Positions 16,602-21,946 of a stretch of 64,000 nucleotides of DNA are shown piece after piece. How positions within the stretch are numbered: the first letter of the stretch is position 1; each line of letters starts with the position of its first letter. The stretch lies in NCBI RefSeq assembly GCF_000931445.1, contig NZ_CP010849.1:5704001-5768000 (forward strand), written 5' to 3'. This stretch comes from Streptomyces cyaneogriseus subsp. noncyanogenus (lineage in GTDB: Bacteria; Actinomycetota; Actinomycetes; Streptomycetales; Streptomycetaceae). The notes under the pieces were generated by a model. It saw nothing but the letters and a program-made list of their open reading frames with translations, was not told where the DNA came from and did not search any database. Position numbers and translations under genes: made by a program.

Positions 16602-17048
16602 GTGGCCGACAACGCGCGGGCTAAGAGGCTGGCGGACCTCATCCGAGAGGTGGTGGCCCAGAAGCTGCAGCGCGGGATCAAGGACCCGCGGCTCGGCTCT
16701 CACGTCACCATCACGGACACCCGGGTCACGGGTGACCTCCGGGAGGCGACCGTCTTCTACACCGTCTACGGGGACGACGAGGAGCGCCAGGCCGCTGCCG
16801 CCGGTCTGGAGAGCGCCAAGGGCATCCTGCGCTCGGAGGTGGGCCGGGCGGCGGGCGTGAAGTTCACGCCGACCCTCACCTTCGTGATGGACGCCCTGCC
16901 GGACACCGCCCGGACCATCGAGGACCTCCTCGACAAGGCGCGGCAGTCCGACGAGAAGGTGCGCGAGGCGTCCGCGGGCGCCTCCTACGCCGGTGGGGCC
17001 GACCCGTACAAGAAGCCCGCAGACGAGACGGACGACACCGCCGAATGA
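16602..17048 (+). CDS. rbfA: Ribosome-binding factor A
   Basis: 30S maturation and cold-adaptation factor, KH-like fold. 148 residues: RAKRLADLIREVVAQKLQR at the N terminus, DPRLGSHVTITDTRVTGDL, and KFTPTLTFVMD near residue 90. A C-terminal tail of about 40 residues is Ala/Asp/Glu-rich and probably unstructured. GTG at 16602 follows a GGGAGACGGA sequence. Its stop overlaps the truB start (ATGA), so the two are coupled. Confidence 0.95.
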   Translation: MADNARAKRLADLIREVVAQKLQRGIKDPRLGSHVTITDTRVTGDLREATVFYTVYGDDEERQAAAAGLESAKGILRSEVGRAAGVKFTPTLTFVMDALPDTARTIEDLLDKARQSDEKVREASAGASYAGGADPYKKPADETDDTAE

Positions 17049-17950
17049 CCGCCAAGCACACCCCGCCCGACGGCCTTGTCATCGTCGACAAGCCGTCGGG
17101 CTTCACTTCGCACGACGTGGTCGCCAAGATGCGGGGCATCGCCCGGACGCGGCGCGTCGGGCACGCCGGCACCCTCGACCCGATGGCGACCGGTGTCCTC
17201 GTCCTCGGCGTGGAGAAGGCCACCAAGCTCCTCGGGCACCTCGCCCTCACCGAGAAGGAGTACCTCGGCACCGTCCGCCTCGGGCAGACGACGATCACGG
17301 ACGACGCCGAGGGCGAGATCACCGCGTCCACCGACGCCTCGAAGGTCCGGCGCGAGGACATCGACGCCGGGGTCGCCAAGCTGACCGGCGACATCATGCA
17401 GGTGCCGTCCAAGGTCAGCGCCATCAAGATCGACGGCGTGCGGTCCTACAAGCGGGCCCGGGAGGGCGAGGAGTTCGACATCCCCGCCCGGCCCGTCACC
17501 GTCTCCTCCTTCGCCGTGCACGACGTCCGCGACGCCGTCGCCGAGGACGGCACGCCGGTGCTGGACCTCGTGGTGTCGGTGGTCTGCTCCTCCGGCACCT
17601 ACATCCGCGCCCTCGCCCGCGACCTCGGCGCGGACCTGGGCGTCGGCGGCCACCTCACCGCCCTGCGCCGCACCCGCGTCGGCCCCTACAAGCTGGACGC
17701 GGCGCGCACCCTGGACCAGCTCCAGCAGGAGCTGACCATGCTGCCGCTCGCCGAGGCGGCCGACGCCGCGTTCCCGCGCTGGGACGTGGACGACCGCCGG
17801 GCCCGGCTGCTCGTCAACGGGGTGCGGCTGGAGATGCCCGACGCGTACGCGGGTGCCGGCGCCGTGGCCGTCTTCGGCCCCGAAGGCCGCTTCCTGGCCC
17901 TCGTCGAGCACCAGCGGGGCAAGGCCAAGAGCCTGGCCGTCTTCGGCTGA
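17045..17950 (+). CDS. truB: tRNA pseudouridine(55) synthase TruB
   Basis: Makes pseudouridine 55 in the T-loop of tRNAs. 301 residues. The catalytic segment GHAGTLDPMATGVLVLG holds Asp45; KEYLGTVRLGQTT and GTYIRALARDLG are the other family blocks. The C-terminal domain (about residues 230-300) is the actinobacterial version. Last gene of the rbfA-truB pair, followed by a 12-bp hairpin. Confidence 0.96.
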   Translation: MTAKHTPPDGLVIVDKPSGFTSHDVVAKMRGIARTRRVGHAGTLDPMATGVLVLGVEKATKLLGHLALTEKEYLGTVRLGQTTITDDAEGEITASTDASKVRREDIDAGVAKLTGDIMQVPSKVSAIKIDGVRSYKRAREGEEFDIPARPVTVSSFAVHDVRDAVAEDGTPVLDLVVSVVCSSGTYIRALARDLGADLGVGGHLTALRRTRVGPYKLDAARTLDQLQQELTMLPLAEAADAAFPRWDVDDRRARLLVNGVRLEMPDAYAGAGAVAVFGPEGRFLALVEHQRGKAKSLAVFG

Positions 17951-17973: not shown

Positions 17974-18015
17974 CCGTGGAGCGGCCACGGGGATGTCCCC
18001 GCCGCCGCTCCACGG
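17974..18015 (+). terminator. Terminator after truB
   Basis: CCGTGGAGCGGC (17974-17985) pairs with GCCGCTCCACGG (18004-18015); an inner GGGG/CCCC pair extends the structure. It starts 23 bases past the stop. Confidence 0.75.
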
Positions 18016-18208: not shown

Positions 18209-21200
18209 ATGGCGTCGAGGAACCGGTCCCGGGACGCACGCGGCATCCGCGCCGCGGACCGGGAGCCCGAGGCCCACGCCCCCGACGACGTCCTGGTCCG
18301 CATCCACGACCCGGGCGGCCGCCTGCTGGGCACCGGCTTCGTCGCCGACCACCACGGCACGGTGATCACCAGCCATGAAGCGGTCCACGGCCTGACCCGC
18401 CTGATGGTGCGCACCGCCCGGGGCGGCGTCCGGGAGGTGTCCGCCGACGAGGTGATGCCGCTGCCCCACCGGGACCTGGCCCTGGTACGCACCAAGGGGC
18501 TGGGCGTCCCGCCCCTCCCGGTCACCGTCCGGGAGCGCATCGAGCCCGGCACCTATGTGCGGATCGCCGCGGGCGGCTGGCGCGAGGCGCGGATCCTCGG
18601 GACCACCGAGGTGACGTACGCCGCCGCCGACCGCCGCCGCCCGCTCGGCCCGGCCCTGGAACTGGCGGTCGGCACGGCGGGACGGGACGCGCTGGCGCCG
18701 GGCGGCGGCGCGGCCGGCGGGCCGGTGGTCGACGCCGCGACCGGCGCCGTCGTCGGCGTCCTCGGCACCGCCCTGCGCGCCGGGCGCCGCGAGGCGGGCT
18801 TCGCCGTGCCGCTGCTCGCCCGGACTCCCGGCGACACCGCGGCGGGGCACCGCGCCGACGGGCCGCTCGCCGACCTGCTCGCCGAGAACGCGGCGACGGT
18901 CCCGGCGCACGGCGCCGACCTCAATCCGGCGGGCGTCGTCGAACTGACGGCCACCTCGGTCGGCCAGGACAGCCCGCCCGGTCCCCTGGGCGCGGGCGCC
19001 CCCGCCGCCGAGCCGGTCGCGCGGGCCGCCGTGCTGCGCGAGCTGACCGCCTTCCTCGACGGCCCGGCGCCCGTCCTCGGACTCGTCGGGGCGCCCGGCA
19101 GCGGCCGTACGACCGCACTGGCCGCCCTCGCCGCCCGCCGCGCCCCGAACGCGGCACCGGTGCCCGCGCTGTGGCTGCGCGGTGCCGATCTGCGCGAGAC
19201 CGACGCCTCGGTCGCCGACGCCGCGCGCCGGGCACTCGCCCGGGCCGCCCGCATCGTCGGCGCCTCGGAGCGCCCCTTCCCCGGCGGCCCGCAGGACGCC
19301 ACCCCCGAACGGCTGGCCCGCGTCGCCCGCGCGGCCGGCTGCCCCCTGCTGCTCCTGCTCGACGGCCCCGAGGAGATGCCGCCGCTGCCCGCCCCGCGCC
19401 TGTCCGAGTGGGCCGAGGGGACGGCGAGGTGGCTGCGGGAGACGGGTGCACGGCTGGTGGTGGCCTGCGGGGTGGAGTACTGGGAGCGCGCGGGAGCGGA
19501 GTTCGGGCGGGGGACGCTGTACGGGGGCAGGGGCGGGGCTGAGCCCGAGGGCGGGATCGGCGGAGTGCCGGCGCCGACGTCGGGGGCGGGCGCCGGTGGG
19601 GGAGGACGGCCGGACGCGGACGGTGGGGACGGCGGCGGGGGAGAGCGGTCTTCGGCTGCCGGTGGGGAAGGGCCGCCGGAGACGGTGGACGCCGGCGGGC
19701 AGCGGCGGCCCCCGGCCGTCGCCGGTGGTGCTCGCGCCGCGCACGAGGGAGGCGCGAGAGCCGTGACCGCCGCCCTGCCGCCTTGGGTGGCGCTGCGCGC
19801 CCTGCCGCCCTGCGTCCCCCTCGGTGACCTGACGGAAGAGGAGGCCCGGCAGGCGCGCGCCCGGTACGGCGTCCCGGAGGACGCCCTGCCGGAGGCGGAC
19901 GCACGGCACCCGCTCACGCTCCGGCTGCTGTCGGAGGTGTGCGCCGCCCTCCCCGGCGCCCCGGACCCGGCCCGCGTCGACCGGGACGAGGTGTTCGCGG
20001 CCTACCTCGACCTGGTCTGCCTGCGCATCGCGGTCCGCCTCGCCGCCCACAACGGCCTGCGCGGCACGGCCGTACGCCGTCTGGCGGCCAGGGTCGCCGG
20101 ACAGGTCCACGAGGCCGCCCGGCGCAGCCTCGCCGCCGGGCAGGGCGCGCTGGACCGCACCGGCTTCGAAGCGGTGTTCCCCTGGGGGCAGGCGCCGGCG
20201 CGGCTCGGCGGCGGCACCGGCTGGGCCACGGCCGTCCTCGCCGAGGGCCTTCTCGTCCCCGCCGGCAACGGCTACCGGTTCGCCCACGAGGAGCTCGCCG
20301 ACTGGCTCCAGGGCATCCACCTCGACCTGGACGAAGCGCTGGGCGCCCTGGTGCACACCGGCGCCCGCCCCGTTCCCGTACCGCACCACCGCATCGGCCC
20401 CGTCGTCCAGGCGATGCTGCACCTGGCCCGCCACCCGGGCAGCCGCCACCTCGCGGCCCGCCTGGGAGAGCTGGTGCACGCCCTGGAGGCCGACCCGCAC
20501 TCCTGGTGGGCGGCGCGGCTGCTGGGCGAGGTGCTGCCGCGCGTGCCGGACGCGTCGCCGTACACGGAGGTCCTGCGGCTGCTCGCCGACCGGATCGCGG
20601 CCTGGCGCGGAGCGGGGCGCCCCGTGCCCCGGGAGTTGGGACCGGACTTCTGGACCGCCCTGGCCCTGCCCCGCGAGATCTGCGCGGACCTGCTGCGCCG
20701 GCTGATCCTCGCCGACGGGCCTCCGCACCGACCCGGGCCCCGCTACCTCGACACCGCGGCCCGGCTGCTCGACGACGACCCCGCGACCGTGCAGCCGCTC
20801 CTGGTCCGCTGGTTCGACGACGAACGGCCCCTGCCCGGGGCCCCGCACGCCACCGTCGCCACGGCCGCGCAGGCCCTGCTGCACACCCGGCGCCGCCTCG
20901 CCCCGGACGCTCTTGTCGAGGTGCTGGCCGACAGCACGCACCGGCGCTCCGGCGAACTGCTCACCGTCCTGGCCGAGGAGGAACCGTCCGCCGTCTGCCG
21001 GGCCGTCGGCCGGTGGGCACACGACGCGCGCCCGGCCCGGCGGATGGCGGCGGTGACGTACGGGCTGCGCGCCGCTCCGTACGTACACTCCGCCGCCGAC
21101 CGCGACCTGCTGCGCCAGGCCGCCCTCCGCCTGCTCGGCGACCCCGGGGAGGCCGCCCCGCACGGCGGCGCGCTCGCCCTGCTCGTCCAGGACCCGGCCG

Positions 21201-21946
21201 TCCGCGGGCGGTACCTCGACCCGGCACTGCGGCTCTTCGCGGCCGGCGACCCCTGCCTTCCGCCGCGGGCGATGGCCGCCGCCCTGCCCACCCACCCGGA
21301 GCCCGTCCTCAACGCCTTCCGGGCGCGGCTGGCCGGCCCCGACGCGGGGGAGGCGCTGCGCAGACTCGCCGACGCGGCCCGGCCCGGGCTCGTCGGCCGG
21401 ATCGCCGCCGTCATCGGGGAGGCCGTGACCGAGCGCCCCGGGATTCTCCGCCACCTGGCCGCCTACGTCGCACAGCGCCTCGATCGCGAGGAGACCGGCC
21501 AGGCCACCGCCGCCCGCGCCGCACTCCCGCCCCTGGTCACCGCCCTGCTGGACAGCGGCTCCGAGCCCGTACGGGCCGCCCTCGCCACCGTGCTCGGCGG
21601 TGCGGGCACCTCCGCCTCCCGTCCGCTGCGCGGCGAACTCCTGGAGTTCCTCCTCGCCCGTGAGCGCGACCCCGCCGTGCTGGACGCCCTGCTGCGCGCC
21701 GCCGCCCGGCGCGACGGTGACGACCTGCGCGGCCTGCTGCACCGCACCGCCTTCCTCCTCGTCCGCACCCCGGACGGCGCCGCCCGCTTCGACCGGGCCC
21801 TGGTCGACCTCGGCCGCCATGTCCCCGGCTTCGCCGCCCGGGTGACCGGCTGGCTGGCCGAGGTGCCGGGGGAGTGGGCGGTGCTGGTGGGGCCCGGCAC
21901 CCGCCGGACCCTGGAGGACCTGGCGGACGCCCCCCTCCCCGCCTGA
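18209..21946 (+). CDS. Serine-less trypsin-like domain fused to a P-loop NTPase and helical repeat region
   Basis: 1245 residues from ATG 18209, set by GGGGAGG seven bases upstream. Residues about 25-210 form a trypsin-like fold: [10 protein letters not shown] offers His56, HRDLALV gives Asp89, but the usual GDSGGP is GAAGGP, with Ala169 where the nucleophile should be. Residues 294-302 are GAPGSGRTT, a Walker A with Arg300 in place of Lys; [10 protein letters not shown] is Walker B. A Gly-rich disordered insert lies near residues 430-520. The remaining 600 residues are leucine/alanine-rich helices like HEAT repeats. The layout is that of STAND-type sensor or scaffold proteins. It sits between truB and ribF, and I recall a similar gene there in other streptomycetes. 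Function unknown; conserved regulation or defence are both open. Confidence 0.75.

Follow-up and report, generated by a model that had tools for sequence, protein, structure and literature searches.

A predicted NLR-like protein with a pseudotrypsin domain and an arginine P-loop, encoded between truB and ribF in Streptomyces

Between truB and ribF, in a stretch of 64,000 nucleotides of the Streptomyces cyaneogriseus subsp. noncyanogenus chromosome (contig NZ_CP010849.1, positions 5,704,001 to 5,768,000; hereafter the window), lies a 1245-codon gene that a sequence-only reading had described as a trypsin fold lacking its serine, joined to an NTPase with arginine in its Walker A motif and to helical repeats. 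The locus raises the question of what an intact gene does with two active sites that both look damaged. The reading that we favour, with middling confidence, is that the gene encodes a cytosolic NLR-like switch with a fixed pseudoprotease effector, and that the product would be a nucleotide-gated binding scaffold and not a protease. The gene as a whole is as follows.

18209..21946, + strand: whole gene, pseudotrypsin, NACHT-type STAND module and helical array (frame, alignment, structure models)

The trypsin-fold domain and its missing serine

Four features of the N-terminal domain bear on whether it could act as a protease.

18287..18823, + strand: HtrA-like trypsin-fold domain, residues 27-205 (Pfam Trypsin_2 and structural matches)
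18374..18376, + strand: His56, catalytic His position
18473..18475, + strand: Asp89, triad Asp position, not conserved
18707..18724, + strand: GAAGGP loop, residues 167-172, in which Ala169 replaces the nucleophilic Ser (readable rows of the alignment)

The assignment draws on both profile and fold. Residues 41-184 score 44.1 bits with Pfam Trypsin_2 (E 4.7e-11), over the cut-off of 27.6, a profile of the whole protein matches HhoA at E 7.2e-05, and structure prediction, which the sequence-only reading had called for, returned an HtrA-like trypsin double barrel whose structural matches include Deg1 (Z 19.7), Mycobacterium tuberculosis HtrA (19.5) and MamO (19.1; 5hma). A PDZ domain after the protease, which is a feature of the HtrA family, was not found in a Pfam scan to E 10, and in the models the NACHT module follows.

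Conservation was read from orthologues, taken as the best 80 of 380 candidates in one scan of genome contigs with six query patterns, one of which covered Walker B. The 80 records are titled Streptomyces except for two 'Actinobacteria bacterium' and one Kitasatospora, the latter nesting among Streptomyces rows on the tree. Three alignments, each including the window protein, hold 61 (A1), 51 (A2) and 39 (A3) of the 80 orthologues. Five records (L018, L021, L029, L053 and L077) have no readable GxSGG region owing to a contig edge or a broken frame, and the P-loop region is missing from L077. The tree was built from residues 540-1245, and L029, L053 and L046 are excluded from its count for position 169.

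The catalytic His position is His in all 75 rows with a residue there. Asp89 varies: of 76 rows, 40 have D, 30 have G and 6 have N, and the tree requires 13 changes or more, so that the earlier statement that both residues are kept holds for His in the family and for Asp89 in the window protein, but not for Asp89 family-wide. Ala169 is fixed apart from two exceptions, being present in 74 of 76 readable rows; the Ser of orthologue L061 and the Cys of orthologue L048 are two single-tip changes nested in Ala-bearing groups. The alanine codons counted by alignment are GCC (69), GCG (4) and GCA (2), and the use of three synonymous codons argues that the residue is kept rather than the DNA. The loop, which we take to correspond to trypsin positions 193-198, also retains Gly at the oxyanion position (Gly167, 75 of 78 rows). 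Nowhere in the domain does the alignment show an invariant Ser or Cys: the best Ser column, S55, has Ser in 67 of 75 rows, and residues 22-235 of the window protein contain only S55 and S78. Thr51 and Thr54 are invariant.

Selection on the gene was estimated from pairs of more than 85% identity, which share branches and are not independent. The median ratio of nonsynonymous to synonymous substitution rates (dN/dS) over 35 pairs is 0.157 for the trypsin part, 0.277 for the NACHT core, 0.192 for the winged-helix part and 0.269 for the helical part, and the neighbouring genes give 0.145 (truB, 33 pairs) and 0.068 (ribF, 35 pairs). The trypsin part is under purifying selection of a strength like that on truB. 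As judged from its aligned residues, the domain is a maintained pseudoprotease, and the earlier suggestion of a protease without its nucleophile is upheld by Ala169, by the lack of a conserved substitute Ser or Cys and by the HtrA fold. Orthologues with Ser and Lys at the two sites, which that reading had named as grounds for rejecting it, did not turn up apart from the Ser of L061 and, as a Cys, L048.

The NACHT-type module and lysine scarcity

The central part of the protein contains the following features.

19004..20413, + strand: NACHT-type STAND module (nucleotide-binding domain, helical domain, winged helix), residues 266-735, split by a variable linker (model of orthologue L075 and structural matches)
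19088..19114, + strand: Walker A, G-x-P-G-[ST]-G-R-T-T; Arg300 codon CGT at 19106-19108
19346..19381, + strand: Walker B (DGPEE), residues 380-391
19469..19471, + strand: residue 421, sensor-1 Arg position, Gly in the window protein

The model of the module from L075 has a mean predicted local distance difference test score (pLDDT) of 84.4 and a predicted template modelling score (pTM) of 0.82, and along its entire length it matches NACHT proteins, namely NLRC4 (Z 17.1 over 295 residues, root-mean-square deviation 4.8), NLRP3 (16.5) and NOD2 (16.0), with Apaf-1 at 14.5. In a Foldseek search with the module, an archaeal Walker ATPase and ORC proteins rank first, with NLRs and Avs4 directly beneath. 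Profile matches are sparser: at E<=0.01, Pfam NACHT is found in 9 of 52 rows (best 8.7e-06) and nSTAND_NTPase5 in 17 of 52, the window protein itself has no Pfam NACHT match, with weak AAA_16 and nSTAND_NTPase5 matches only, and no NACHT protein was found when solved structures were searched with a sequence profile of this part, the best match being FlhF at E 0.026. By its modelled fold the module is a STAND of the NACHT type in which one defining residue, the Walker A Lys, is absent.

The Walker A sequence of the window protein is GAPGSGRTT, and His56, Asp89, Ala169 in GAAGGP and Arg300 all lie at the positions originally assigned to them. Arg300 is fixed (80 of 80 rows, with no Lys row) and is encoded by CGT in 66 rows, CGC in 9 and CGG in 5; CGT is not known to be the favoured Arg codon in Streptomyces. 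Thr301 and Thr302 are kept in all 80 rows. The Walker B residues E388 and E389 are present in 81 of 81, a conservation that is partly built in because a retrieval pattern covered this motif. The sensor-1 position is Arg in 77 rows and Gly in 4 of 81. Damage to the NTPase site, the other half of the earlier suggestion, may therefore be only apparent: both Thr of the P-loop and Walker B are retained, as is the sensor-1 Arg in most orthologues, and Arg300 may reflect lysine scarcity.

This scarcity is pronounced. Against 141 Arg, the 1245-residue window protein contains a single Lys, at position 96, and across 81 rows each protein has 0-7 Lys, with a mean of 0.20%. A baseline was drawn from 987 open reading frames in 1.66 Mb of the same genome, chosen by a codon-position G+C rule and not by annotation. 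The G+C content of the gene (0.796) tops all 243 sampled frames of >=500 residues, and none of the 64 frames of >=800 residues is equally lysine-poor. Regression on codon-position G+C predicts 0.51% Lys where 0.08% is observed (z -2.5, with 1.8% of frames as low or lower; z -1.9 in a smaller sample from the same genome), so that composition accounts for much of the lysine scarcity, but not all of it. Strict Walker A motifs in the 987 frames have Lys in 55 cases and Arg in 2, and the two Arg motifs resemble that in the second of the two ATPase halves found in sugar ABC transporters. A literature search on Arg in Walker A yielded nothing of use. Arg300 may have arisen as lysine was lost across the protein, in which case it would count for less as a sign that the NTPase is dead.

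Proteins of this composition have been described before. According to Szulc 2023 (PMC10665810), lysine deserts are numerous in actinobacteria with Pup and a proteasome and occur in 35.4% of filtered Streptomyces coelicolor sequences, and the nearly Lys-free window protein resembles them. It differs in the length of its longest Lys-free run, 1149 residues, which exceeds any in the 987 sampled frames (the next being 1115); the likeness is one of composition.

Chain architecture, chromosomal place and range

A model of residues 22-1200 (pLDDT 80.7, pTM 0.64) places these modules in one chain, with two linkers and a C-terminal helical array.

18866..18994, + strand: conserved inter-domain segment, residues 220-262 (majority-residue fraction 0.86 for 221-240 and 0.80 for 241-260)
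19517..19810, + strand: hypervariable low-complexity linker, residues 437-534, within the NACHT module (5-380 residues, median 28, in 75 rows; pLDDT ~30)
20414..21943, + strand: long alpha-helical array, residues 736-1245 (all-helical by DSSP, mostly pLDDT >85, to the model end at residue 1200)

The inter-domain segment is predicted to be unstructured from about residue 230 to 265 (pLDDT <50), and its high conservation despite this makes it a candidate docking segment. In the models the order is effector, NACHT and repeats, which is the NLR architecture, the repeats being judged from the helices alone. The proposed combination of trypsin, NTPase and helical repeats agrees with the models, and the loci put it in one fixed syntenic place.

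Translation of 18209-21946 confirms an intact frame of 1245 codons with no internal stop, followed by a stop codon and lying, as first described, between truB and ribF. GGGGAGG is located 7 bases 5' of the ATG at 18209; a further in-frame ATG is present upstream at 17993, and in the orthologue alignment residues 1-20 counted from ATG 18209 are already weakly conserved. The N-terminus on reading has no obvious signal peptide, and the protein is probably cytosolic. Frames are open across the family except in rows that are frame-broken or at a contig edge. The flanking genes are as follows.

17045..17950, + strand: truB, conserved upstream neighbour (precedes the gene in 74 of 80 loci; the remaining 6 start at a contig edge)
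22093..23049, + strand: ribF, conserved downstream neighbour (downstream in 79 of 80 loci)

The neighbours in the window are translation genes, in a cluster with infB, rbfA, truB and ribF, and truB is separated from the gene by 258 bases. The gene is single copy, as no paralogue was found in its own 7.76-Mb chromosome (second match E 0.57). No PADLOC defence-system model matches it, and no vWA, MoxR or nuclease partner was seen beside it in the window.

In S. coelicolor, rbfA is SCO5708 and truB is SCO5709 (PMC6344877), and ribF is SCO5711 (PMC9282665), so that from locus-tag order alone the counterpart should be SCO5710. A full-text literature search for SCO5710 found nothing, and the sole match to a search for truB, ribF and Streptomyces concerned mycobacteria.

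Outside Streptomyces the range was judged from four actinobacterial records: in Nonomuraea and Arthrobacter there is no copy of the gene between truB and ribF, and searches of the stretches from Tsukamurella and Nocardia gave no match to it. On reading, the Nonomuraea interval holds a different, methyltransferase-like frame. Within the genus, the truB-ribF interval of Streptomyces sp. BHT-5-2 (L082 5263-6456) is occupied by a short frame that covers no more than part of the helical array, and this remnant was the only close relative found on plasmids; the BHT-5-2 record is filed as a 2.8-Mb plasmid, yet carries infB, truB and ribF. From this small sample of absences, together with the remnant, the gene appears to be a losable addition to the Streptomyces lineage.

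A nucleotide-gated binding scaffold and the alternatives

If the gene encodes an NLR-like scaffold, each module would have a part in its action. The groove of the trypsin fold and the loop with Ala for Ser would hold on to a peptide or a segment of a protein and leave it uncut. Proteases with a Ser-to-Ala mutation are used by crystallographers, and a pseudoprotease is the natural counterpart; since the fold, the His and the loop glycines are kept without cutting, as in such engineered proteins, we infer a peptide- or protein-binding head. The NACHT module would bind nucleotide, with Arg300 in the role of Lys, and alternate between a closed form and forms that are open or oligomeric; sensing a trigger or holding a partner would fall to the helical array.

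There is precedent for a binding role in MamO of magnetotactic bacteria, a trypsin pseudoprotease in which such a role has been tested (PMC4794232). MamO shares an HtrA-like fold without catalysis, and of the structures matched above its protease domain ranks near the top. It has Thr at the nucleophile, Glu at 193, a transporter domain and metal binding, whereas the window protein has Ala, keeps Gly at 193 and is fused to a NACHT module. Peptide-binding or dominant-negative roles have also been proposed for inactive trypsins by Kaur 2020 (PMC7159879). The vWA-MoxR ternary systems treated there and in eLife 2021 (PMC8195603) include inactive trypsins, iSTAND modules and trypsin-like domains N-terminal to iSTAND, comparable to the order seen here. 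The window differs in having no adjacent vWA or MoxR, in the truB and ribF genes that flank most loci, and in a P-loop that is kept save for its Lys, and the cited text of Kaur 2020 describes iSTAND systems as almost wholly absent from actinobacteria.

A near mirror image is provided by LypA of the CARD-NLR-like system of Caulobacter (PMC13236601), in which an active trypsin domain is fused to an ATPase domain without conserved Walker residues; an ATPase and helical repeats are found in LypB. LypA needs its catalytic Ser, as S262A fails to restore lysis, whereas in the window protein it is the protease that is inactive, and a single chain carries protease, NTPase and helical array. The NACHT NLRs (NLRC4, NLRP3, NOD2) and bNACHT share the order of effector, NACHT and repeats and the fold from the nucleotide-binding domain to the winged helix; the window protein departs from them in its Arg for the Walker A Lys, its pseudoprotease effector, a helical array that is not leucine-rich repeats, and the Pfam NACHT match confined to 9 of 52 rows.

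Several points weigh against the scaffold reading. L061, which holds His, Asp and Ser jointly, and L048 with its Cys may still be catalytic in those species. Retrieval by query patterns, with the best 80 of 380 candidates kept, may have passed over divergent orthologues with Ser or Lys. Nucleotide gating is suggested by analogy of fold, the window protein has Gly at what would be the sensor-1 position, and the remnant in BHT-5-2 indicates that the gene is dispensable there.

The most serious alternative, which we rate somewhat short of even, is that Arg300 is a passive outcome of composition, lysines having been shed at extreme G+C, and that the NACHT module still binds, and perhaps hydrolyses, nucleotide, with the protease alone dead. 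The single Lys against 141 Arg, the 0-7 Lys of the orthologues, a G+C content above 243 of 243 frames and the retention of Thr301, Thr302 and Walker B are all as this explanation would have them. Yet G+C by itself predicts several times more Lys than is seen, the ratio of 55 Lys to 2 Arg among Walker A motifs of the same genome indicates that composition seldom removes this Lys, and the Arg300 codons are all CGN, which no single base change would turn into a Lys codon, so that the Arg looks old and fixed. Two alternatives place the gene in a known type of function, and we consider both unlikely. The NLR architecture of the models would suit a bacterial NLR-type anti-invader receptor (bNACHT, CARD-NLR or Avs-like) with the pseudoprotease as a decoy or dominant-negative domain, but PADLOC finds no match, no vWA, MoxR or nuclease partner is seen in the window, the single-copy gene has a fixed housekeeping place among translation genes, and the helical part (dN/dS 0.27) has no sign of fast diversification. 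That same conserved position, with a cluster alike in S. coelicolor (SCO5708, SCO5709 and SCO5711; PMC6344877, PMC9282665), would fit a housekeeping role in which the fold serves as a scaffold that assists translation or ribosome assembly; against this stand the lack of the gene in the Nonomuraea and Arthrobacter interval, the unmatched Tsukamurella and Nocardia stretches and the remnant in BHT-5-2, and the 258-base gap to truB leaves co-transcription unproven.

The other two alternatives concern the active sites themselves. An active protease with a shifted nucleophile is very improbable: Ser169 in L061, Cys169 in L048 and the invariant Thr51 and Thr54 could be cited for it, but an alternative nucleophile was rejected for want of a fixed Ser or Cys column in the domain, with 8 of 75 rows having Gly or Ala at S55, and 36 of 76 a residue other than Asp at position 89. 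Simple decay, with broken active sites in a dying gene, is scarcely credible. The window protein lies on a long branch (0.39, where the median is 0.087) and its sensor-1 residue is Gly, as might be seen in decay, but the frames are open, the changed sites are fixed and not random, and this reading was rejected for the family by the low dN/dS in all four folded parts.

Taken one step further, the scaffold reading would make the gene a domesticated NLR-type receptor in the Streptomyces core chromosome, with a natural Ser-to-Ala substrate trap and a NACHT with an obligatory P-loop Arg, that reports a captured peptide signal through its nucleotide state to the adjacent translation or flavin gene products; as a whole, this proposal is unlikely. 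Inactive trypsins and inactive STAND modules are known from variable conflict systems. In this gene the pseudoprotease and the Arg of the P-loop are both fixed, at one syntenic place in many Streptomyces and under purifying selection, a combination that we did not find described. The gene offers a clean, single-copy case in which the role of a pseudoprotease in an NLR-type switch, and gating by an Arg P-loop, could be tested.

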